Made by a program: the position numbers and the translations under genes. A stretch of DNA of 64,000 nt from Betaproteobacteria bacterium (lineage in GTDB: Bacteria > Pseudomonadota > Gammaproteobacteria > Burkholderiales > SG8-41): the NCBI GenBank assembly GCA_028292435.1, contig JAQGMI010000006.1:62001-126000 (forward strand), written 5' to 3'. A model generated the notes under the pieces. The model ran no database searches. It was not told where the DNA came from and was given only the letters and a program-made list of their open reading frames with translations. This document shows positions 3,030 to 60,169 of the stretch, one piece after another (the stretch's first letter is position 1; every line of letters starts with the position of its first letter).

Positions 3030-4817
3030 ATGTCCAAGATCGTTGAAGTTAAAGTCCCCGACATTGGCGATTTTAAAAATATTCCCATCATCGAAATCCT
3101 GGTGAAACCGGGCGACCGCGTTGAGGCCGAAGAGCCGCTGATCGCGCTCGAATCCGATAAGGCGACCATGGAAGTACCGTCACCGTCGGCGGGTATCGTC
3201 AAAGAACTCAAAGTCAAAGTCGGCGACAAGGTTTCGCAAGGCACGCTCGTGTTGATGCTCGAAGCCGGAGAGGCAAGTGCGGGAGCGTCCGCCGCTGCCG
3301 AGGCGCCTGCAAAATCTGCGGCGCCTGCACCGGTTCCTGCAGCCGCGACGCCGGCGCCAACCGCGGCATCGTTCGCCGGCGGCGCCGATATCGAATGCGA
3401 TGTAGTCGTGCTCGGCGCCGGGCCGGGCGGTTATTCGGCGGCGTTTCGTGCCGCCGATCTCGGCTTGAAAACCGTGATCGTCGAACGTTATGCGTCGCTG
3501 GGCGGCGTGTGCCTCAACGTCGGGTGCATTCCCTCGAAGGCGCTGCTGCACGTCGCCGCGGTGATGGATGAAGCCGCGCATTTCGCCGACCTTGGCGTGA
3601 GCTTCGGCAAGCCGGCGGTCGATCTATCAAAGCTGCGCGCGCACAAATCGAAAGTCGTCGGCAAGTTGACGGGTGGGCTGGCGGCAATGGCCAAAGCGCG
3701 CAAAGTGACCGTAGTGCGCGGCTACGGGCAGTTTCTCGATCCGCAGCATCTTGAAGTCGAAGCGACGCAGGGCGACGGCCAGGACAAAAGCGGCAAAAAA
3801 AGCGTCGTCAAATTCAAGCACGCGATCATTGCGGCCGGTTCGATGCCGGTCAAACTGCCGTTCGTGCCCGACGACCCACGGATTGTCGATTCGACCGGCG
3901 CGCTGACGCTGCCATCGATTCCAAAGCGCATGCTGGTCATTGGCGGCGGCATCATCGGGCTCGAGATGGCAACCGTCTATTCAACGCTCGGTAGCCGGAT
4001 TGACGTGGTCGAAATGCTCGACGGCCTCATGCAGGGCGCCGACCGCGACCTCGTCAATGTCTGGCGTAAATTCAATACGGCGCGTTTCGATAAAGTCATG
4101 CTTAAAACCAAAACGGTCGCCGCCGAAGCAACGTCGGACGGCATCAAAGTTAAATTCGAAGGCGAGCAGGCACCCGCAGAACCGCAGGTTTATGACTTCG
4201 TACTGGTCGGCGTCGGCCGCAGCCCCAACGGCAACAAGATCGGCGCCGACAAGGCCGGCATCGCTGTCGATCAGCGCGGCTATATTGCGGTCGACAAGCA
4301 GATGCGTACCAACGTTGCGCACATTTTCGCGATCGGCGATGTTATCGGGCAGCCGATGCTTGCGCACAAGGCGGTGCACGAAGGGCACGTCGCGGCCGAG
4401 GCTGCTGCGGGGCAAAAATCTTTTTTCGATGCGCGAGTGATTCCATCGGTTGCCTATACCGACCCGGAAGTCGCGTGGGTCGGCCTGACCGAAGACGAGG
4501 CCAAGAAACAAGGTATCAAAGTCGGTGTCGGTAAATTTCCGTGGGCCGCGAGCGGCCGCGCAATCGCCAATGGACGCGATGAGGGCTTCACTAAATTGAT
4601 TGTCGACGAAGCAACGCATCGTGTTGTCGGGGGCGGCATAGTCGGCACGCATGCCGGCGATCTAATCGGAGAGATAGCACTTGCGGTCGAGATGGGCGCC
4701 GATGCGGGCGACATCGGCCAGACCATACATCCGCATCCGACGCTCGGCGAATCGATCGGCATGGCGGCCGAAGTATTCGAAGGCGTGTGCACGGACCTCA
4801 TGCCGGCGAAGAAGTAA
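3030..4817 (+). CDS. lpdA: Dihydrolipoyl dehydrogenase (E3) with N-terminal lipoyl domain
   Basis: Flavoenzyme that reoxidises dihydrolipoamide in the pyruvate dehydrogenase complex. Residues 1 to about 80 form a lipoyl domain with the lipoylated lysine Lys44 in ESDKATMEVPS. An Ala/Pro-rich linker of about 35 residues follows, then the E3 core: FAD-binding GAGPGGYSA, redox-active disulfide C161/C166 in GGVCLNVGCIPSK, NAD-binding GGGIIGLEMA, and the C-terminal HPHPTLGES catalytic His motif. At 595 residues it has the size of lipoyl-E3 fusions typical of betaproteobacterial PDH. Those are normally encoded next to aceE and aceF, but here proA is directly upstream and no aceEF is visible. Confidence 0.93.
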   Translation: MSKIVEVKVPDIGDFKNIPIIEILVKPGDRVEAEEPLIALESDKATMEVPSPSAGIVKELKVKVGDKVSQGTLVLMLEAGEASAGASAAAEAPAKSAAPAPVPAAATPAPTAASFAGGADIECDVVVLGAGPGGYSAAFRAADLGLKTVIVERYASLGGVCLNVGCIPSKALLHVAAVMDEAAHFADLGVSFGKPAVDLSKLRAHKSKVVGKLTGGLAAMAKARKVTVVRGYGQFLDPQHLEVEATQGDGQDKSGKKSVVKFKHAIIAAGSMPVKLPFVPDDPRIVDSTGALTLPSIPKRMLVIGGGIIGLEMATVYSTLGSRIDVVEMLDGLMQGADRDLVNVWRKFNTARFDKVMLKTKTVAAEATSDGIKVKFEGEQAPAEPQVYDFVLVGVGRSPNGNKIGADKAGIAVDQRGYIAVDKQMRTNVAHIFAIGDVIGQPMLAHKAVHEGHVAAEAAAGQKSFFDARVIPSVAYTDPEVAWVGLTEDEAKKQGIKVGVGKFPWAASGRAIANGRDEGFTKLIVDEATHRVVGGGIVGTHAGDLIGEIALAVEMGADAGDIGQTIHPHPTLGESIGMAAEVFEGVCTDLMPAKK

Positions 4818-4949
4818 TTTAACCACGGCACTTTCGCTAACAAGTTCGCGGCGGCCGGTTGTCTGCGATAATCGGCGCATGCTTCTTCAAGCGAAGCACT
4901 ACATGTCAGCGCCATGCTGGCGGCGGCTCAAGTGCCGGAAATAAATGCC

Positions 4950-5420
4950 ATGCGAATTTGGGTCGATGCGGATGCATGCCCGAATCCGATCAAGGAAATC
5001 CTGTTCCGGGCTGCGGAACGCACCAAGATCGAATTGACGCTGGTCGCCAACAAACCGCTGCGCACGCCACCTTCCGCCTACATTAATACCATCCAGGTAG
5101 AGGCCGGGTTTGACGTGGCGGACGACAAGATTGCCAAGGAAATTCGTGCCGGCGATCTCGTGATTACGGCCGATATTCCGCTCGCCGCAGCCGCCATCGT
5201 CAAAGGCGGATATGTGCTCGACCCGCGCGGCGAGCGTTACACCTCAGACAATATTGAAGCGCGGCTTTCCATGCGGCGTTTCATGGATGAACTGCGTTCG
5301 AGCGGCGTGGACACCGGCGGTCCGCCGCCATTCAGCCAGGCAGACCGCCAGGCATTCGCGCGGCAATTGGAACAGTTTCTCGCGCAATTTGCTCCCAAAC
5401 CGCCGCCGGGGGGCGCATAA
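4950..5420 (+). CDS. UPF0178 (YaiI/YqxD, DUF188) family protein
   Basis: Conserved cytoplasmic protein of unproven function in a PIN-like/NYN fold family. The 156-residue product begins [15 protein letters not shown], the family's signature N-terminus with conserved acidic residues, and continues with [10 protein letters not shown] and [10 protein letters not shown] chose ATG 4950 because homologues begin at MRIWVDAD; an upstream in-frame ATG at 4914 would add 12 residues unlike the family. It stands alone after lpdA. The family assignment is firm and the biochemical role is not known to me. Confidence 0.9.
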
Positions 5421-5453
5421 TCTATACTTATCCTCTCATCCAAGGACATGCCA

Positions 5454-5615
5454 TTGGCTAAACCTAATTATCAGTTTGAAAAGCGCCAGAAAGAGTTGGC
5501 GAAAAAGAAAAAGAAAGAAGAGAAACGCCTGCGAAAACTCGCCGAGCATGGGCCCGAGCCCGAAGCGAACGAGCAGAGTCCCGTCACCCCGCCGCCCGAA
5601 GGCGAAAAGCCCTAA
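5454..5615 (+). CDS. Small Lys-rich conserved protein (53 aa), TTG start
   Basis: Short open frame encoding a highly basic protein that begins MAKPNYQFEKRQKELAKKKK and ends in an acidic, Pro-rich tail. Small proteins with this N-terminus recur in betaproteobacteria as unnamed hypotheticals (my recollection, not searched). The start is decided by the ribosome-binding site: AAGGA at 5442-5446 lies 7 nt before TTG 5454 but only 1 nt before the in-frame ATG at 5448. The Lys/Glu run suggests a charged helix that might bind nucleic acid, but that is a guess. Confidence 0.65.
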   Translation: MAKPNYQFEKRQKELAKKKKKEEKRLRKLAEHGPEPEANEQSPVTPPPEGEKP

Positions 5616-5641
5616 TTACACGCAGACCGTTGCGTTAGCTC

Positions 5642-6016
5642 ATGGCAGTTACCAAAACCAAGCTGGCAAAGTGCATCCATCATCGGGTCCGGTTGCGGCC
5701 GCCCGCGCGGCGCTTCCGCGGCGTGACCGAGCTGCGCATCATGGACGATGACTGGCTGGTGCAGGAAACCGAAGACGAGCAAGTGCGTATTCGCAATATC
5801 CGCACCGATCATGTGGCGGTGCTCGCGTTCAATCAGATTCGCGAATATGTAACCGACCCCAAGCGCGAATTCGATGGTTTGCGCCATGGATTTCTTGAAC
5901 TCAAAGTTCAGGTGTTTTTACGCGGGCCGGAACTCGTGATCGAACCACGCCCGTCTGCCGCAAAAGTTCCAGCGCCCAAAAAGACCGGTGCGGCGCGCAA
6001 GCGCAAGACCAGCTGA
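5642..6016 (+). CDS. Conserved hypothetical protein
   Basis: A 124-residue product of unknown function. The middle has the texture of a real protein (RIMDDDWLVQETEDEQVRI, then HGFLELKVQVFLRG), with a basic Ala/Pro/Lys tail. The first 30 residues are basic and less protein-like and no clear ribosome-binding site precedes ATG 5642, so translation could begin at the ATG for MDDDW near 5741. It lies 26 bp after the small Lys-rich gene. No catalytic motif or membrane segment is visible. Confidence 0.5.
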   Translation: MAVTKTKLAKCIHHRVRLRPPARRFRGVTELRIMDDDWLVQETEDEQVRIRNIRTDHVAVLAFNQIREYVTDPKREFDGLRHGFLELKVQVFLRGPELVIEPRPSAAKVPAPKKTGAARKRKTS

Positions 6017-6048
6017 ACCGTTGCAAATAACGCAACCGAGCGATGCGC

Positions 6049-6411
6049 TCAGCTGCGAACGCGCTTCACTAACTTGTAAAATCCCTCGACGTCGCGCGTT
6101 TGCCGAAGCTTGTCAGCGCGCAATTCGAGCCTGATCTTCAGCAAGTCGGCGCACAACGCCCACCCCTCGGGCGTCGCAAGCGGTTCGAACAAGGTTGCAA
6201 TCCCATCCGAATGAGCATCCGCCGGTCCTTCGCCGACGAGATAGCCGATCGCGCTTGCGACATGCGTTTCCGGCACCGCAAACGCGAGCTGGATGCCGCG
6301 TTGCAGATCGTCGTAATCGTTGGCCGCCGGACTCATGCCGGATGCGACGGCATTTCGACGGCTCGTCCACCCGGCGTCGAAATCTTGACGAGACTTCGTG
6401 GTAATTGGCAT
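6049..6411 (-). CDS. Hypothetical protein
   Basis: A 120-residue product starting MPITTKSRQDFDAGW. It is a mildly acidic soluble protein with no recognised domain; motifs such as YDDLQRGIQLAFAVPETHV and a basic C-terminus are visible. The open frame extends upstream to 6516, but the extension is Cys/His-rich and unlike a protein start, so I prefer ATG 6411. It is convergent with the preceding plus-strand gene. I do not recognise the family. Confidence 0.5.
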   Translation of the reverse strand: MPITTKSRQDFDAGWTSRRNAVASGMSPAANDYDDLQRGIQLAFAVPETHVASAIGYLVGEGPADAHSDGIATLFEPLATPEGWALCADLLKIRLELRADKLRQTRDVEGFYKLVKRVRS

Positions 6412-6597
6412 TAGAAACCTCCCATGACGCCAACAAGTGCAAATCCCATGCCCGTGACAAGCGCGGTGCATGGAAATTGCTGCTGCGTATGGGAGGATCA
6501 GCGCGTCGAATTGCATGGTGCAATAGGCGCGCGAGCGGCGTCATCTTAAGCGGTGCATGACGCCGTACTATGCCGGCGGACTACATACCGCCGTAAA

Positions 6598-6984
6598 TTA
6601 CATGCCTTTGGCGAGTGCGACCACGAGATTGCCCTCGCGACTTTCAACTTCTATTTCGTACTGGCGCTTGGGGTCCGCGTCTTCGACGCCGCGGTGGCCT
6701 TGCGCCGTCTGCTCTTTCTTGGGCCACACGAGAAAACCTTTGACGGGAACACCGCGCTCGATCGCTTCGCTCACGTTGGCGTGATGGCGCGCGCCGGTCG
6801 AACGCTCGAGATCTTTGTCCTCGCACAACGTATAGCGATAGACGCCGCTGCTAACGCGTTTCAGCTGGTCCGACCATAAGGTGACCCATAACGTCGAGCG
6901 ATCCTCAGTCCATTTCGATGAGTCGTACCGCGTGCCGCCCACGGTGCCCAGATGCTCCCATGCGACGGTGATTTTTGGTTTCAT
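6598..6984 (-). CDS. Hypothetical protein
   Basis: A 128-residue soluble protein beginning MKPKITVAWEHLGTVGGT. It contains alternating charged and hydrophobic segments (STLWVTLWSDQL, PVKGFLVWPKK) suggestive of beta strands. An AAGGT-like weak ribosome-binding site precedes the ATG. No known domain, signal or membrane segment was recognised. It has the same orientation as the hypothetical gene at 6049-6411 but is separated from it by about 190 bp. Confidence 0.5.
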   Translation of the reverse strand: MKPKITVAWEHLGTVGGTRYDSSKWTEDRSTLWVTLWSDQLKRVSSGVYRYTLCEDKDLERSTGARHHANVSEAIERGVPVKGFLVWPKKEQTAQGHRGVEDADPKRQYEIEVESREGNLVVALAKGM

Positions 6985-7330
6985 GCTTTGACCTTGTAAT
7001 AGTGGCAGGCTGGTAGTGCAACCGTGTATTTTAACCCGTATCGCGAAACAGAGCGTAGTACGTGCGCTTTTTCACAGGTGAATTAAGCATTTACCCGGAA
7101 AATGGCGCTCGTTTTTTGGCACTGGCAGCAGAATTCCGCCGCCCACCCCACCACAGTAACCCTGACAGCGTCACTAGTACTTGAAATTGAAGGCCTTTTC
7201 AGGGGCAATCCACAAGCGTAAACTATTGGCCACCCAACAGTCGCTATTGCACCGTTTTACGGCTCAAGCGTTATGCGTCTTACACCATGGCTGAGCACTG
7301 CAGAACGATAAGGCATAACGAGGAGAAGAT
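6985..7330. other. Intergenic region upstream of the kor operon
   Basis: About 350 bp without a convincing gene, between a minus-strand hypothetical and the plus-strand 2-oxoacid oxidoreductase operon. It should hold divergent promoters, but I could not assign a confident -35/-10 pair. It ends with a strong ribosome-binding site, AGGAGAAG at 7321-7328, serving the TTG start of the first operon gene. Confidence 0.4.
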
Positions 7331-9154
7331 TTGAAGCCGACCGATATTCACCAGCCCGATTATTTCCACAAAGTCGTTGATTGCCAGTGGGCCTGCCCCG
7401 CCCACACTCCCGTTCCCGAATACATCCGCCTGATCGCCGCCGGCCGCTACAGCGATGCCTACATGGTCAATTGGGAATCCAATGTGTTTCCCGGCGTGCT
7501 TGGCCGCACCTGCGACCGTCCCTGCGAACCGGCTTGCCGCCGCGGTCGCGTTGAAGAAAATAATGGTGAGAAACCTGAACCCGTTGCGATCTGCCGCTTA
7601 AAGCGCGTCGCCGCCGATTACAAAGACGACATCACTGAGCGACTGCCGAAAGCGCCCGCCCAGAAAAACGGCAAGCGCGTCGCATTAATCGGCGCCGGGC
7701 CCGCCTCGCTCACCGTCGCGCGCGATCTTGCGCCGCTTGGTTACGACGTCACCGTGTTCGATGGCGACAAACAGGCCGGCGGCATGATCCGCACGCAGAT
7801 TCCGAAATTTCGCTTGCCCGAATCGGTGATCGACGAGGAAGTCAATTACATCCTGAACATCGGCGTTAATTTCCGCGGTGGCCAACACATCGACAGCCTG
7901 AAGCAGGTAGTGTCTGAAAAATACGACGCAGTCTTCGTCGGCACCGGCGCTCCGCGCGGCCGCGATCTTGAGCTCCCGGGACGCAAAGAAGCAGCGAAAA
8001 ACATTCACATCGGTATCGACTGGCTGAACAGCGTGTCGTTCGGGCACATTGAGAAAATCGGCAAGCGCGTCATCGTGCTTGGCGGCGGCAACACCGCGAT
8101 GGACTGCTGCCGTTCATCGAAGCGGCTCGGCGGCGACGATGTCAAAGTGATCGTGCGCTCGGGCTTCGAAGAAATGAAAGCGAGCCCGTGGGAAAAAGAA
8201 GACGCTCAGCATGAAGGCATTCCGATCCTGAACTTCCTCGTGCCCAAATCATTTACGCACGATCAGGGCAAGCTCACCGGCATGCTGTTCGAAAAAGTGA
8301 AGGCCGAGTACGACGCCAAAGGGCGCCGCAATCTCGTGCCGACGGGCGAACCGGACCAGCATTTCGAATGCGACGACGTGCTGGTTGCCGTCGGCCAGGA
8401 AAATGCATTCCCCTGGATTGAACGCGACATTGGCATTGAGTTCGACAAGTGGGGCATGCCGGTCGTCGACAAAGTCACGATGCAATCGACGATCCCGAAT
8501 GTGTTCTTCGGCGGCGATTCGGCGTTCGGTCCCAAAAACATTATCTGGGCCGTCGCGCACGGCCATGAAGCAGCGATTTCAATCGACAAGCTGTGCAATG
8601 GCGAAGATGTCAAAGATCGTCCGGCGCCGATGGTCAATCTCCAGTCCCAGAAGATGGGCATACACGAGTGGAGCTACGACAACGCGATCTCGAACGATCA
8701 GCGCTACAAGGTCCCGCTTAAAGACCAGAAAATCGCGCTGAAGAACATCAAGGTCGAAGTCGAACTCGGGTTCGATCCGAAGCTTGCGCTTGCCGAAGCC
8801 GAGCGCTGCTTAAATTGCGACGCCCAGACGGTATTCAGCGAGAAGCTGTGCATCGAATGCGACGCCTGTGTCGACATCTGCCCGATGGACTGCATCACCT
8901 TCACCGATAACGGCGACGAAAAAGAGCTGCGCACACGATTGAAGGCACCGGCCGACAATCTGACGCAAGACGTCTACGTCTCCACCACGCTCAAGACCGG
9001 CCGGATCATGGCCAAGGACGAGGACGTGTGCCTGCATTGCGGATTGTGCGCCGAACGCTGCCCGACAGGTGCGTGGGACATGCAGAAATTCCTGCTGCAG
9101 ATGACGTACGCCGGTCCGGGCTGCCGTAACAAGCCGCAACGCAAAGCCGCCTGA
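7331..9154 (+). CDS. FAD/Fe-S NAD(P)H oxidoreductase subunit of 2-oxoacid oxidoreductase (KorC-like)
   Basis: A 607-residue GltD-like flavoprotein that probably passes electrons between NAD(P) and the KorAB complex. Its N-terminus has GltD-type Fe-S cysteines (CQWACP and CDRPCEPACRRG). Two dinucleotide-binding folds follow (GAGPASLTVA for FAD, GGGNTAMDC for NAD(P)). The C-terminus has two ferredoxin-type clusters (CIECDACVDICP and CLHCGLCAERCP). The start is TTG 7331 behind AGGAGAAG. It is followed 7 bp later by the alpha subunit. The same composition (62-67, 37 and 66-72 kDa class subunits) is known for the 2-oxoglutarate:NADP oxidoreductase of Thauera/Azoarcus; substrate assignment here is inference. 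Confidence 0.85.
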   Translation: MKPTDIHQPDYFHKVVDCQWACPAHTPVPEYIRLIAAGRYSDAYMVNWESNVFPGVLGRTCDRPCEPACRRGRVEENNGEKPEPVAICRLKRVAADYKDDITERLPKAPAQKNGKRVALIGAGPASLTVARDLAPLGYDVTVFDGDKQAGGMIRTQIPKFRLPESVIDEEVNYILNIGVNFRGGQHIDSLKQVVSEKYDAVFVGTGAPRGRDLELPGRKEAAKNIHIGIDWLNSVSFGHIEKIGKRVIVLGGGNTAMDCCRSSKRLGGDDVKVIVRSGFEEMKASPWEKEDAQHEGIPILNFLVPKSFTHDQGKLTGMLFEKVKAEYDAKGRRNLVPTGEPDQHFECDDVLVAVGQENAFPWIERDIGIEFDKWGMPVVDKVTMQSTIPNVFFGGDSAFGPKNIIWAVAHGHEAAISIDKLCNGEDVKDRPAPMVNLQSQKMGIHEWSYDNAISNDQRYKVPLKDQKIALKNIKVEVELGFDPKLALAEAERCLNCDAQTVFSEKLCIECDACVDICPMDCITFTDNGDEKELRTRLKAPADNLTQDVYVSTTLKTGRIMAKDEDVCLHCGLCAERCPTGAWDMQKFLLQMTYAGPGCRNKPQRKAA

Positions 9155-9161
9155 GGACGGA

Positions 9162-11000
9162 ATGAAACAAATTACATCGACCAACGATTTCGTCGTCAAA
9201 TTCGCCAACGTCAACGGCTCGGGCTCGGCGTCGGCCAACGAGCTTTTCGCGCGCTCGATTCTGCGCATGGGCGTACCGGTAGCGCCCCGCAACATCTTTC
9301 CGTCGAACATCCAGGGCCTGCCGACGTGGTACGAAGTGCGCGTCACTGAAACCGGCTACCAGGGCCGCCGCGGCGGCGTCGATCTGATGGTCGCGATGAA
9401 TCCGCAAACGTGGGATGCCGACATCAAGGAAATTGAAGAAGGCGGTTACCTGTTTTACGACAATACCAAGTCGCTGCCGCAATCGAAATTCCGCACCGAC
9501 ATCAACGTGATCGGCATGCCGCTCACTGAAATCTGCAACGCCACTTACACCGACCCGCGCCAGCGCCAACTCTTCAAAAATATTGTATATGTCGGCGCGC
9601 TGTCCGCGCTGCTCGACATCGATCCGACCGAGATCGAGCGTCTGTTCTCGGAACAATACAAAGGCAAGGAAGCGCTGCTGCAGTCAAACGTGAAGGCGCT
9701 GCGGCTCGGCCGCGATTACGCGCAGCAGCATCTCGGCGGACCGATCGGGCTCAAGATCAAGCGCGCGGACAATGTCGGAAACAAGATTTTTATCGACGGC
9801 AACAGCGCGGCGGCGCTCGGTGCGGTTTACGGCGGTGCCACGGTGTGCGCGTGGTATCCGATCACGCCGTCGTCGTCGCTCGCCGAAGGGTTTATCAAGT
9901 ACTGCCAGAAACACCGTGTCGATCCTGCGACCGGCCAGAACAAATTCGCAATCGTGCAGGCCGAAGACGAGCTCGCGTCGATTGGCATGGTCATCGGTGC
10001 CAGCTGGAACGGCGCACGCGCATTCACGGCGACGTCGGGCCCCGGGATTTCACTGATGACCGAGTTCATCGGTCTCGCCTACTTCGCAGAAATCCCGGCG
10101 GTCATCGTTAACGTGCAGCGCGGCGGCCCTTCGACCGGCATGCCAACGCGCACCCAGCAGTCGGATGTGATCGCCTGCGCGTACGCTTCGCATGGTGACA
10201 CCAAGCACGTGCTGCTGTTCCCCGAAGACCCGACCGAATGTTTTGAGTTCACAGCCAAGTCGTTCGACCTGGCTGAGCGCCTGCAGACGCCGATTTTCAT
10301 GATGACCGATCTCGATATCGGCATGAACACGCGTTTATGCGCGCCGTTCCAGTGGGACGATAAGCAAGCTTACGACCGCGGCAAGATCATGACCTCGGCG
10401 ATGCTCGATTCCGGGCGCGACTTCGGCCGCTATCTCGACGTCGACGGCGACGGCATCGCGTACCGCACCTATCCGGGCACCCACGCCACGCGCGGTGGTT
10501 ATTTCACGCGCGGCACGACCAAGAACCGTTACGCGGGCTATAGCGAAACCGGGCCCGATTACATCGATAACGTGCAGCGCCTGCTGCGCAAGTTCGATAC
10601 GGCCAAGAAACTGGTGCCCGCACCGTTGCTTTATCCGGCGGAAAAGCCGGCGCGGTTCGGCGCGATTTTTTACGGCTCGACAAGCCCCGCCATGCAGGAA
10701 GCACTCGACGTGCTCGCCACGCGCGGCATTCATGTGAACGCGCTGCGCGTGCGTGCCTTTCCGTTCCAGGACGAGATCAACGATTTCGTCGCTTCGCACC
10801 CGTGGGTGTTCGTGATCGAGCAAAACCGCGATGCGCAATTGAAAACACTGCTCGTCAACGAAGCTAAGATCAACCCGTCGCGGCTCTTGTCCGTGCTGCA
10901 TTACGACGGCACGCCGATTACCGCCCGTTTCATCGTCGACCAGATCTCGCAGCATGCTGCTGCACGCACCGTCGTCCCGCTCAAGAAAGTGGTGTCATGA
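9162..11000 (+). CDS. 2-oxoacid:acceptor oxidoreductase, fused gamma-alpha subunit (KorA-like)
   Basis: A 612-residue subunit of a TPP-dependent 2-oxoacid oxidoreductase. Residues 1 to about 190 form the gamma domain (GGVDLMVAMNPQTW). A pyrimidine-binding alpha domain follows (AWYPITPSSSLAE, ATSGPGISLMTEF, RGGPSTGMPTRTQQSD), then the C-terminal transketolase-type domain. The enzyme family oxidatively decarboxylates a 2-oxoacid to acyl-CoA while reducing ferredoxin. It is translationally coupled to the beta subunit by an ATGA overlap. 2-oxoglutarate is the likeliest substrate by operon architecture, but pyruvate or a branched-chain oxoacid cannot be excluded. Confidence 0.88.
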   Translation: MKQITSTNDFVVKFANVNGSGSASANELFARSILRMGVPVAPRNIFPSNIQGLPTWYEVRVTETGYQGRRGGVDLMVAMNPQTWDADIKEIEEGGYLFYDNTKSLPQSKFRTDINVIGMPLTEICNATYTDPRQRQLFKNIVYVGALSALLDIDPTEIERLFSEQYKGKEALLQSNVKALRLGRDYAQQHLGGPIGLKIKRADNVGNKIFIDGNSAAALGAVYGGATVCAWYPITPSSSLAEGFIKYCQKHRVDPATGQNKFAIVQAEDELASIGMVIGASWNGARAFTATSGPGISLMTEFIGLAYFAEIPAVIVNVQRGGPSTGMPTRTQQSDVIACAYASHGDTKHVLLFPEDPTECFEFTAKSFDLAERLQTPIFMMTDLDIGMNTRLCAPFQWDDKQAYDRGKIMTSAMLDSGRDFGRYLDVDGDGIAYRTYPGTHATRGGYFTRGTTKNRYAGYSETGPDYIDNVQRLLRKFDTAKKLVPAPLLYPAEKPARFGAIFYGSTSPAMQEALDVLATRGIHVNALRVRAFPFQDEINDFVASHPWVFVIEQNRDAQLKTLLVNEAKINPSRLLSVLHYDGTPITARFIVDQISQHAAARTVVPLKKVVS

Positions 11001-54727: not shown

Positions 54728-55693
54728 ATGCAATTCAAAAATTTTTTGCTGATGGCACTGTTGCTCGCGCTTTCAATCGAGGGCGCAGCGCAGAGTTATC
54801 CAACCAAACCTGTGCGCATCGTTGTCGGCTTCGCCGCCGGCGGCGCGACCGACATCGCGGGCCGGCTCATCGCGCAAAAACTTTCCGAGGCGACGGGCCA
54901 GTCGTACTTCGTCGACAACCGTCCGGGCGCGAGCGCCACGATCGGTTCGGAATTTGTCGCACGTTCGGCACCCGACGGCTACACGCTGCTGATCGCGGCG
55001 ACGACTTCACATTCGATTTTGCCGAGCCTGATGACGAAGCTCTCGTACGATCCGCTGCGCGACTACGCGCCGGTGAGTTTGCTCGCGACGTCACCGCTGC
55101 TGCTCGCGCTGCATCCCTCGCTGCCGATCCGCTCCGTCACCGACATGATCAAGCTCGCGCGCGCGAAGCCGGGCCAGTTGAGCTTCGGCGCCGGCGGCAC
55201 CGGCACGCCGCCGCATATGGCGGGAGAACTCTTCAAGCAGATGGCGGGCGTGCAGATGCTCTACGTGCCGTACAAAGGCGAAGCGCCGGCAATCTCCGAT
55301 CTCATCGGTGGCCAAATCTCTCTTATCTTCTCGAACGTCGTCGCCGTGCTGCCGCAAGTGCAGGCCGGACGTTTGCGCGGCATCGCGGTAACCGCCGAGA
55401 ATCGCCTGCCCACGCTGCCGGAATATCCGACCGTCGGTGAATCCGGCGTGCCGGGCTTCGCGGTGGATTCGTGGTTCGGTCTCGTCGCGCCGGCAGGCAC
55501 GTCGAGCGATGTGATCGCCAAGCTCAATGCCGACACCGGGCGCGGCATGAATCAACCCGACGTTCGCGATCGCCTCGCCAGCCAGGGACTATTCGTAAAG
55601 ACCGGCACGCCGGCGGAACTCACTTCGTTAATGCAAAGCGAAATCGCGAAGTGGAAAAAGGTGGTGACAGCAGCAGGCCTGAAGTTTGACTGA
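54728..55693 (+). CDS. Bug/TctC-family periplasmic substrate-binding protein
   Basis: A 321-residue receptor with signal peptide LLALSIEGAAQS and mature YPTKPVRIVVGFAAGGATDI. It has GASATIGSEFVARSAPDGYT, LSFGAGGTGTPPHMAGELF and YVPYKGEAPAISDLIGGQIS. A GGGAG site precedes ATG 54728. It is divergent from the malic enzyme gene with a shared 100 bp promoter region. An orphan Bug like the others. Confidence 0.93.
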   Translation: MQFKNFLLMALLLALSIEGAAQSYPTKPVRIVVGFAAGGATDIAGRLIAQKLSEATGQSYFVDNRPGASATIGSEFVARSAPDGYTLLIAATTSHSILPSLMTKLSYDPLRDYAPVSLLATSPLLLALHPSLPIRSVTDMIKLARAKPGQLSFGAGGTGTPPHMAGELFKQMAGVQMLYVPYKGEAPAISDLIGGQISLIFSNVVAVLPQVQAGRLRGIAVTAENRLPTLPEYPTVGESGVPGFAVDSWFGLVAPAGTSSDVIAKLNADTGRGMNQPDVRDRLASQGLFVKTGTPAELTSLMQSEIAKWKKVVTAAGLKFD

Positions 55694-57309: not shown

Positions 57310-59013
57310 TCAATTCTGCTTTGCCGGGAACGTCATCTTCTTGGTGACCGGATTGACGTAGCCGCCCCACAGCACCATCACGCGATTGCGATGCGGATCG
57401 CCGCAAACCATGATGTGGATCATGTCGGGGCTCGGCAGGATGCGCACGAAATCGTCCGGACCGACGAGATACTCGGGCGGATAAATGCCGCGATCAACGG
57501 CGTCCTTGATGGTGAACGCTTCGGAGTGCCCGTACTTGAGCACGAACTCGAGTTCGCGGAAGGTGACGCGCGCGTGCTCATAGATGTATTCGCGGATTTT
57601 CTGCTTGGTGTAACCCGCGTCGGCGAGCGACTTCGCGACCGGCGGCGCAATCAAAATGCTCACCATGTTGCGAAAGCCTCTGGGGCCGCGCTCGGCAAGC
57701 CGCGCGAGGCAGGGCTTCTTCGTCAATTCGAGACTCAGGAAATCAAGCGCGGTCTGCGCGGCCGTCTGGTCGGGTGTGCCGTAAATCGCCGGCGCCCAGC
57801 CCCAGGTCACGCTCGCGCAGGCCGTCACCGTGCTGTCCTCGCGCGTGAAACCATGCTCGACGTGAAACGGCTGCCATGGATTGTCGGTATCGTTTTCGGC
57901 GAGCGTAAAACATTGCGGATAGCCGAACGTGCCCATGTAATTGCGGCCCGGCTTGTAACCGGCAATGTTCCTGACGATCATGCCGAGCGCGCGCCCGATC
58001 GACGGATTGTTGCCCTTTGAAATCAGATGAGCGCCGCTCTCGATGCCCATCTTTTTCACCGCCGGCCCGTTGACGAGCAGATAAGGGAACACACCCCACG
58101 TCGTGCCGATGTTCGCGAGGTTGTAGTCGTTGTCGGCAATCGCTTCGACCAGCGCGATCAAGAGCGGCATCGATTCGGGACCGCAGCCTGCCATGATGGC
58201 GTTCGCCGCAATGTTGGTCGGCGTCGCTTCGAGATTCGCCTGCGCCAACACCGCGATGCGCTCATTCGGCTTGCGGTCCGTGTACTTTAGAAATTCCTGC
58301 ACGCGCTCGAGCGTCGGCGGAATGATCGGCAGCTCATCGGTCCAGCCCTGGTTGCGGAAATACTCGTTGACGTCTTCGAACGTGCCTTCGTAAATGATTT
58401 CATCCGCGCCGCGTGAGGTCTTCGCCACCGTGCCGCTGCCGCCATCGCGCGGCTTGGTCAGGTGATCGACGATGCGATCGAACAGAACCGTCTCCACGTT
58501 CTTGACCACGACTTCTTCCGGGTGCACGCCGACCGCGCCCGGATATTCGCCGATGCGTAAATCGGCCATCCCTTCGGCCTTCGCCACTGCTTTCGCGATT
58601 GTCGTGAATCCCGTGGTCGTGATGACGACGCTCGGGATGCCCGCCTTTTCTGCTTCTACCGCCGGCCTCACCGAGGACGGAGTGCAGGTCCCTCAACCAC
58701 CGTTGCCGGTGATGATCGCATCGACGCCTTTCTCTTTCGCGATCGCTGCGATTTCTTTGGCAATGCGTTTCTGCGTTTCCGGATCGCCGCCGACATAGAC
58801 AATCGGAAATTCATCGTATGGAATGATTTTGATGTTCTTGTATTTTTCCCTGAACAACCGGCGATAGGTCTGAAACATCAGCTCGCCTTTGAAGTGGTTG
58901 TTGTACACCTCGCCGATGGTTTTACCGTCGAGCGTGTCGAGGTGGCGGCTGATGTTTGTGGTCGTGCCGAGCGGGCGGCCTTCGGGGCTGATGACGCTGA
59001 GATTTTCTTTCAC
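57310..59013 (-). CDS. Predicted selenoprotein, UGSC/GrdB-like, Sec encoded by TGA at 58693-58695
   Basis: One 567-residue protein read through an in-frame TGA. Residues 1-106 read SVISPEGRPLGTT, HLDTLDGKTIGEVYNN and GVDAIITGNGG. Codon 107 is TGA, followed by GTCTPSSVRPAVEAEKAGIP, the Sec-G-[ST]-C motif of UGSC proteins and of glycine reductase GrdB (UGTCT). The frame then stays open for 460 codons with protein-like sequence (NIAANAIMAGCGPES, GYPQCFTLAEND, ILPSPDMIHIMVCGDPHRN). The start is GTG 59013 after AAGGA. The C-terminal two-thirds is a domain of unknown function. A nonsense mutation is the alternative, but the motif, intact downstream frame and hairpin argue for Sec. Confidence 0.88.
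58658..58683 (-). promoter_or_regulatory. Predicted bacterial SECIS hairpin
   Basis: Twenty nucleotides after the TGA, the coding strand can fold as ACU-CCG-U-CCUC-GGU-GAGG-C-CGG-C-GGU. CCUC/GAGG and CCG/CGG pair around a U/C mismatch, a further ACU/GGU pairing sits beyond one bulged C, and the apical loop is GGU. A small apical loop with an early G, about 16-37 nt from UGA, is the accepted bacterial SECIS form recognised by SelB. The fold was judged by eye only. Confidence 0.7.
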
Positions 59014-59197
59014 GGAATAATCCTTGAAGGTTTGCGCCCTGCAACCTGAGCGCTGGTTGCTTTCATTCTCCCATTCCCATCGCAGATTGCGCAAATCGCC
59101 CTTCCGGTCAGTCGCCCGCGTTCGACCCGACGTGCAACGCTTGCTAAACTACGGCCTCCCTTGCCGCTTCTCCACGTTTCCTTTCCTCAAAAACCGG

Positions 59198-60169
59198 ATG
59201 AAATTCACTCGCACGGTCTTACGCTGTTCGACGCTTGCACTGATCGCCGCATCGCCCGCGCTGTTCGCGCAGGATTATCCGAATAAGCCGGTGCGCCTCA
59301 TCGTCGGCTTTGCGCCCGGCGGCGGCACCGATGTGTTCGCGCGAATCATCGGCAACGAGATGACCCGCGCGTTCGGCCAGCAAATCATTGTCGACAATCG
59401 TTCCGGCGCCAACGGCGTGGTCGCCGCAAACCTCGTATCCCGCGCCACACCTGACGGCTACACCGTGATGATCATTCTTTCGTCGCACGTGATCAACGCG
59501 CTCTCGTACAAAGACCTGCAGTTCGATGCGATCAACGACTTCACGCCGGTGACCGCACTGGCGACCACACCTTATGTGCTGACCGTTCATCCGTCGCTGC
59601 CCGTGAACTCCGTGCAGGAGCTGATCGCGCTCGCCAAAGCGAAGCCCGGCTCGATCAATTACGCGTCGGCCGGCAACGGTTCGATTCCGCATTTGTTTCA
59701 GGAACTCATGGATAGTAAAGTCGGCATCAAGCTGACGCACGTGCCGTTCAACGGATCGGCGCCGGCGCTGACCGACCAGCTCGCGGGCCGCGTGCCGCTG
59801 CTGATGCAGAGCGTGCTGCAGTGCATGCCGCATCTGAAATCGAACCGCCTGAAAGCGCTCGCGATCACTGCCGGCAAGCGCAATGCCGCGCTGCCCGACG
59901 TGCCGACGCTCGCGGAGAGCGGCGTGCCCGGATACGACGCCGATCAATGGTGGGCGATGGTGACGCCGCGCGGCTTGCCGAAACCCATCCAGACCAGGCT
60001 GCACGGCGAACTCGTCAAGATAGTGCTCGCGCCGAAGACAAAAGAATATCTAGCGTCGCAGGGTTTGGAAGCGATGGGCACCACGCCCGAGCAGCTCTCG
60101 ACCATCATGAAAAACGAATACGCCAAATGGGCGCCGCTGTTCAAGCAGGGCCTGGTGAAACCGGAGTGA
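59198..60169 (+). CDS. Bug/TctC-family periplasmic substrate-binding protein
   Basis: A 323-residue receptor; signal peptide LALIAASPALFAQ, mature YPNKPVRLIVGFAPGGGTDV. It has GANGVVAANLVSRATPDGYT, INYASAGNGSIPHLFQELM and HVPFNGSAPALTDQLAGRV. ATG 59198 is preferred; the open frame upstream lacks a signal peptide. It starts a probable operon with an amidohydrolase (2 bp gap) and an old-yellow-enzyme homologue, suggesting uptake and catabolism of one organic substrate. It is divergent from the selenoprotein gene. Confidence 0.93.
   Translation: MKFTRTVLRCSTLALIAASPALFAQDYPNKPVRLIVGFAPGGGTDVFARIIGNEMTRAFGQQIIVDNRSGANGVVAANLVSRATPDGYTVMIILSSHVINALSYKDLQFDAINDFTPVTALATTPYVLTVHPSLPVNSVQELIALAKAKPGSINYASAGNGSIPHLFQELMDSKVGIKLTHVPFNGSAPALTDQLAGRVPLLMQSVLQCMPHLKSNRLKALAITAGKRNAALPDVPTLAESGVPGYDADQWWAMVTPRGLPKPIQTRLHGELVKIVLAPKTKEYLASQGLEAMGTTPEQLSTIMKNEYAKWAPLFKQGLVKPE

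Follow-up and report, generated by a model that had tools for sequence, protein, structure and literature searches.

A UGSC-family gene with an in-frame UGA and a recurrent partner domain in a betaproteobacterial genome

A 64,000-nucleotide stretch of a draft Betaproteobacteria genome (the window) carries on its minus strand two open reading frames that share a phase and are separated by a TGA codon. The question raised by this locus is whether the two frames are a single selenoprotein gene and, if so, what the product might do. An ordinary ORF listing yields frames at 58693-59094 (133 aa) and 57310-58671 (453 aa), which is the split that the original prediction had expected of ordinary gene calling. 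With the TGA read as selenocysteine (U), the minus strand at 57310-59013 encodes 567 residues followed by a final stop. The sole internal stop is the TGA at residue 107 (58693-58695, minus strand), which lies in the context GNGG-U-GTCTPSS with the motif U-G-T-C. The proposal that the two frames are one gene was borne out by this 567-codon frame with its single internal TGA. The GTG at 59013 is likely to be the start of the selenoprotein gene because it is preceded by AAGGA and because alignments of close homologues begin at residue 2-4 of the window protein. The features of the locus are as follows.

57310 to 59013, minus strand: whole predicted selenoprotein gene, 567 aa; start GTG 59011-59013, stop TGA 57310-57312; single internal TGA, upstream AAGGA, full-length homologues.
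58456 to 58995, minus strand: UGSC domain, residues 7-186; Pfam PF24696, E 2.7e-26, 93.2 bits against a cut-off of 25; alpha/beta in the model.
58693 to 58695, minus strand: predicted UGA codon for selenocysteine, residue 107; TGA in 30 of 30 aligned homologues.
58662 to 58680, minus strand: bacterial SECIS-like hairpin CCGTCCTC-GGT-GAGGCCGG, from fold and synonymous conservation; loop starts 20 nt past the UGA.
57313 to 58431, minus strand: partner domain, residues 195-567; without Pfam or NCBIfam match; alignments of 19 and 66; model pLDDT 88.3.
59024 to 60169, plus strand: Bug/TctC solute receptor, a divergent neighbour on a separate transcript; PF03401, E 1.4e-67.

Full-protein matches at E ≤ 1e-100 were found in 37 of 74 genomes of the same family (the source genome included), with a TGA inside every match listed. 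The TGA occupied column 107 in all 30 extracted sequences (29 homologues and the window). One partial match among the 30 (L203) has three more TGAs outside its matched range. It had been proposed that homologues be checked for U or C at this column. Around loci found with the partner domain (described below), the Sec column held U in 77, C in 5 and an unreadable residue in 1 of 83 UGSC hits, with few exceptions elsewhere. Neither U nor C was present in two remote fused copies of a relative (L121 and L122 of genome G004), and Met was seen by eye in fused plasmid copies of Sporomusa termitida and Vibrio europaeus (L170, L177). These four proteins are possible non-redox descendants; such divergent UGSC-partner members without U and C therefore suggest a fold able to do something without a selenol. 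The Sporomusa and Vibrio copies lie near aconitase X and DUF126 genes. Selection was measured on orthologues of more than 62% identity (22 with the window), which gave 20 usable comparisons per region with the window as reference. Median dN/dS was 0.18 upstream of the TGA, 0.16 across residues 108-190 and 0.19 across residues 200-560.

Synonymous codon use was most conserved straight after the TGA. The 15-codon segment from codon 108 ranked 4 of 501, the remaining segments in the top eight overlap it, and codons 110, 112 and 114-117 showed zero synonymous differences despite a dS of ~1. In most of the 22 orthologues the hairpin here has the sequence CCGKCCTC-GGY-GAGGCCGG. Its stem is free of mismatches in 13 of them and has one mismatch in 9, including the window, where a T opposite C leaves four pairs, the mismatch and three pairs. 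Bacterial SECIS elements are expected to hold a loop G within a certain range of distance from the UGA. A hairpin with such a loop G was found in 17 of 18 UGSC genes of the source genome and in 75 of 75 others, against 53% and 56%, respectively, of control segments from the same genes. The free energies of the UGSC hairpins were below those of the controls (Wilcoxon 1.4e-4 for the source genome, 4e-13 for the others). Because the loop-G criterion is lenient, perfect stems were also counted: stems of at least 6 pairs occurred in 94.6% of 93 UGSC genes versus 21.4% of codon shuffles, and the stem centre was identical in 78 of the 93. A search of Rfam returned no family for the hairpin, the only two matches being at chance level and on the opposite strand.

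The source genome (a 5.17-Mb draft, 90.6% complete, with 8.1% contamination) was searched for the selenocysteine machinery, as had been suggested, and SelA, SelB, SelD and tRNA-Sec were all present. SelB (445.6 bits), SelA (590.2 bits) and SelD (417.7 bits) scored above their curated cut-offs, and the tRNA-Sec (77.2 bits, anticodon tca) was also called by ARAGORN. The SelD frame (G000:C147:54661-55587) has a single in-frame TGA, so the SelD of this organism is probably a selenoprotein too. On contig C82 (locus L026, G000:C82:1-13000), positions 3573-10895 of the minus strand carry selA, selB, a TrxR-like gene, tRNA-Sec, a Bug gene and a UGSC fusion, all on one strand. The TrxR-like gene of this sel cluster contains CADC, and its flavoprotein product is probably a reductase. 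As judged from sequence, the features expected of a UGSC selenoprotein are thus present: a UGA within U-G-[ST]-C, a hairpin after the UGA and Sec machinery in the genome.

The window protein exceeded the gathering score of Pfam family PF24696 (93.2 bits versus 25, covering model positions 2-171 of 172) and fell short of the NF041046 equivalog cut-off (62.8 bits versus 125). By these scores it is within the Pfam UGSC family and outside the NF041046 equivalog. With its relatives in PF24696 and NF041046 it shares the entire N-terminal domain, the U-G-[ST]-C motif and the hairpin past the UGA, but it differs from them in carrying an extra domain of 370 residues. Similarity to glycine/betaine reductase selenoprotein B and to PrdB was local and weak, being confined to residues 70-143 around the Sec (E down to 4.9e-7), and none of the respective cut-offs was reached (PrdB, 29.4 versus 300; GrdH, 26.2 versus 775; GrdB, 21.8 versus 602.2). 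In a wide alignment of 84 members, 9 gave a GrdB match at E ≤ 0.01; the 84 include partner-only rows unable to match. The original description of the protein as a UGSC-family selenoprotein distantly resembling GrdB and PrdB at the Sec site agrees with these values (Pfam UGSC, 2.7e-26; PrdB, 4.9e-7; GrdH, 3.6e-6, the last two scoring far under their cut-offs). The GrdB and PrdB reductases have a pyruvoyl partner subunit, GrdE or PrdA. No GrdE/PrdA-like subunit was recognised in the partner domain by Pfam or NCBIfam.

A structural model of the fused protein had a pLDDT of 90.5 and a pTM of 0.92, and it places the Sec between a strand (99-105) and a helix (110-123). The modelled UGSC domain matched Rossmann-like proteins, PurE among them, with Z ~10 in a tool that may miss folds outside its list; these matches indicate only a common alpha/beta arrangement. 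The UGSC domain shares a Sec-x-x-Cys motif with thioredoxin-fold selenoproteins, and a thioredoxin-like fold was guessed for it in the accessible text of a 2008 paper (PMC2398784), whereas the best matches of the model are instead to Rossmann-like proteins. Foldseek with the fused model gave no match at E ≤ 0.001, and sequence searches of the protein and both profiles against solved structures gave chance-level hits only.

The region after the UGSC domain had been described as a long novel domain. It stands as novel in that no Pfam family (66 members scanned) or NCBIfam family matched it, but it is not unique to the window protein, since the genome contains 19 copies of this partner domain. 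From sequence comparison, the C-terminal 370 residues are a widespread UGSC partner family, more often encoded by a separate gene beside a short UGSC gene. Asp226, Asn336, Arg341 and Glu373 are invariant in 66 partner rows, and Cys277 of the MAGCxPE motif is kept in at least 90% of them. Among the partners of the source genome the Cys is present in MAGC or a close variant in 17 of 19, and Gly is found in the fusions on contigs C121 and C140. The model of the partner alone (pLDDT 88.3) had a best Foldseek E of 0.07 and a best VIA Z of 6.2. These values are at noise level and no fold was assigned, which is no proof of a new fold. In one partner gene on contig C121 (L033, 11075-12718) the open frame starts with a CETC stretch that looks thioredoxin-like by eye and to which Pfam gives no family.

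Proteins of this kind are already known, because a fusion of UGSC to a conserved unknown domain, 'Unknown_1', was printed in 2008 in a Global Ocean Sampling study (PMC2398784). The partner domain is likely to be Unknown_1, the two having been compared by their descriptions. In both arrangements UGSC is fused with a conserved, functionally uncharacterised domain, and such fused domains as a rule contain one or more conserved Cys (PMC2398784). The same study places UGSC fifth by number among aquatic-metagenome selenoproteins (255 Sec and 21 Cys sequences in its Table 2); its accessible text gives no function for UGSC, and paralogous expansion, split pairs, co-occurrence and a TrxR link were not found there. 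A literature search, within the text accessible to it, found no description of the partner family, the split or fused module, the redox link or the scale of expansion. Nor did it find anything on SAR202 selenoproteins or on selenocysteine paralogous expansion in metagenome-assembled genomes.

The source genome contains 19 partner domains and 18 UGSC domains, and in each of the latter a single TGA stands at the same column. Six pairs are fused (the window, C114, C82, C127, C121 and C140). Eleven unfused UGSC genes directly adjoin a partner, in either order, and one of the eleven has two partners next to it. One partner (C51:51490) is without a UGSC gene, and a UGSC gene near a contig end on C101 is without a visible partner. 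Across 60 genomes, including this one, the partner was found in 39 and UGSC in the same 39, genome by genome. Among 299 genomes of the phylum, partner and UGSC occurred in the same 4, again including this one; in one of the four, G201, the UGSC frame contains no stop.

Scanning named genomes with the partner as the sole query returned at least 585 loci, of which the best 80 were analysed. These best 80 come from Betaproteobacteria, Chloroflexota, Rokubacteria, Nitrospinota, Alphaproteobacteria, Actinomycetota, Bacillus dakarensis, Natrialba asiatica and others. UGSC lay near the partner in 75 of them and was absent in 5, as at the one locus of the source genome; some of these partners are at contig ends. 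Around the same best 80 loci there were 86 UGSC hits, some of which are fragments of one domain, and the Sec column was visible in 83. Twenty-eight of the 86 hits were in frame with the partner (L095 twice), and 58 were in separate frames, 33 to 889 bases off. The MAG records of L041, L053, L083, L089 and L092 carry the title Bordetella parapertussis and isolate names that look environmental, and their species label seems to be wrong. When 108 partner domains were placed in a quick tree, the fused or split state required 11 changes, 4 of them forced by well supported branches. The paralogues of the source genome are scattered in this tree, and the window copy sits on a long branch among fused copies from Betaproteobacteria and Chloroflexota.

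A larger set was found in the relative G004 (98% complete, 2% contamination), which had given 59 matches in the first search. Its loci yielded 60 hits. The motif contains U in 54 of these, of which 34 are fused to a partner, 19 lie adjacent to one and 1 stands alone; the 6 others are the two remote fused copies without U or C and four fragments. Of the 54 U copies, 51 are almost complete; the motif of one is UESC, and this copy has probably decayed. The highest pairwise identity among the 54 domains is 72% and the median is 26%, which weakens the idea that the copies are co-assembled strains. The suggestion that G004 lies above the largest known selenoproteome, taken as 39, was dropped, as the accessible text of a 2026 review gives 57 and 63 genes for the largest bacterial selenoproteomes, the latter in a Methylomirabilota MAG (PMC13188914). 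At 12 plasmid loci the Sec column was U in 2 (Acidovorax sp. T1 and Paracoccus ferrooxidans), C in 8 and Met in 2. In P. ferrooxidans, plasmid pFER4 carries a UGSC gene (L173, 5360-5929) whose annotation shows two in-phase hypothetical proteins of 96 and 81 codons; with selB 4.4 kb off, it appears to be a selenoprotein of a cultured strain that was annotated wrongly.

The adjacent Bug/amidohydrolase/OYE operon had also been taken as a hint of a catabolic redox role. Those genes are on the opposite strand and so do not share an operon with the selenoprotein gene: the plus strand of the window carries the divergent Bug gene and then the amidohydrolase, OYE and MFS genes. No match to the amidohydrolase, OYE, MFS or lipoprotein-like neighbour of the window was found at 20 orthologous loci (up to ~6 kb per side, several cut by contig ends), and the amidohydrolase and OYE were dropped as pathway markers on this ground. 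Bug relatives were found at 19 of the 20. They occurred at 14 of 16 loci of the source genome and at 30 of 80 other loci (best 80 of at least 585). Six Bug/TctC receptors lie within the 64-kb window, among them 54728-55693 and 59024-60169, so their presence may be background.

Neighbour genes were clustered using a coding score. Over the 20 orthologous loci and the window, the most frequent were those for a GMC oxidoreductase (11 of 21), an MR/MLE protein of the enolase superfamily (10), a GNAT acetyltransferase (9) and MmgE/PrpD (7), followed by LysR, MFS and cupin genes (5 each); the window itself is without GMC, MR/MLE, GNAT and MmgE/PrpD genes. TrxR-like frames were present at 8 of 80 loci (best 80 of at least 585). 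Seven of these lie within 135 bases of UGSC on the same strand, all within one subclade of the quick tree. TrxR-like frames also occur at 6 of the 12 plasmid loci, as in the order partner-UGSC-trxB in Roseovarius sp. THAF8. The neighbours vary widely and none that is catabolic is constant; gene context therefore does not fix the reaction.

At the level of sequence, the UGA is kept as a coding position, followed by a hairpin, in a genome with Sec machinery; both parts of the protein are under purifying selection, and they keep steady company. From this we infer Sec insertion itself and the action of UGSC and partner as one enzyme. Our main reading, to which we give a probability of about one-half, is that the protein is a two-part selenoenzyme, distantly GrdB/PrdB-like, that would carry out a reductive step on small organic acids, with the chemistry deduced rather than observed. 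The partner domain, with its conserved Asp, Asn, Arg, Glu and usual Cys, would bind the acid, and the selenolate of U-G-[ST]-C would attack or reduce it there. The Sec of GrdB and PrdB is thought to attack or reduce the substrate in the same manner. The oxidised Sec-S-Cys pair would then be re-reduced by a TrxR-like flavoprotein, either directly or via thioredoxin. The many paralogues beside differing catabolic genes and Bug/TctC receptors would act on differing substrates. For the orthologous group of the window, the substrate would likely be an acid on which a GMC oxidoreductase also acts, together with a MmgE/PrpD or enolase-superfamily enzyme.

The TrxR-like neighbours would also be expected if the same selenoprotein were a general thiol-disulfide oxidoreductase or peroxide scavenger, with the Sec reducing oxidised thiols or peroxides together with thioredoxin reductase and the partner serving as a docking or regulatory part. 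The U-x-x-C motif, the thioredoxin-like fold assumed in the accessible text of the 2008 paper (PMC2398784) and the CETC stretch upstream in the C121 partner frame, thioredoxin-like by eye and without a Pfam family, are consistent with such a role. However, the UGSC model matches Rossmann-like proteins (PurE and others, Z ~10), and 18 to 54 diverged copies per genome, many by different catabolic genes, would be better explained by diversity of substrates than by a housekeeping defence. We regard this role as unlikely.

Less likely again is that the partner is a separate hydrolase or lyase for which UGSC is merely a redox switch or auxiliary subunit. Such a division of labor would account for partners without an adjacent UGSC (C51:51490 in the source genome; 5 of 80 loci, best 80 of at least 585), and the partner model gave hints of cyanuric acid hydrolase/barbiturase (Foldseek E 0.07) and of a chorismate-mutase-like half (Z 6.2). 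These structural scores are at noise level, however, and in both genome samples (60 and 299) every partner-bearing genome had UGSC. A genuine stop at the TGA, a sequencing error or a pseudogene lesion would be conceivable in a draft genome with 8.1% contamination, but these readings were rejected as very unlikely in view of the same-column TGA in all 30 sequences (the window plus 29 homologues, the latter taken from other assemblies), dN/dS values indicating purifying selection past the TGA, the conserved hairpin and the Sec machinery.

If the two-part selenoenzyme reading is extended to the whole family, UGSC and its partner could make up a new superfamily, whose members would be two-part reductases that depend on selenium and are distant counterparts to the glycine and D-proline reductases. 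We put this forward tentatively, as a possibility that we hold with less than even confidence. The superfamily would have radiated in uncultured Burkholderiales-like bacteria and would occur also in Chloroflexota, Rokubacteria, Alphaproteobacteria, Actinomycetota and, with Cys, in haloarchaea, each paralogue reductively opening or stripping a different small organic acid. If this is true, single genomes devote dozens of selenoproteins to UGSC-partner reductases.

The recurrent UGSC-partner pair, as seen in sequence, suggests that a large family of selenium enzymes has so far gone uncharacterised. One family supplies 54 Sec copies in a single genome, a number near the largest whole selenoproteomes of 57 and 63 in the accessible text of the review (PMC13188914). 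UGSC readthrough also accounts for paired hypothetical fragments produced by gene callers, for example in Paracoccus ferrooxidans. A steady partner, a possible reductant and recurrent operons make the function of UGSC testable, in cultured strains as well.
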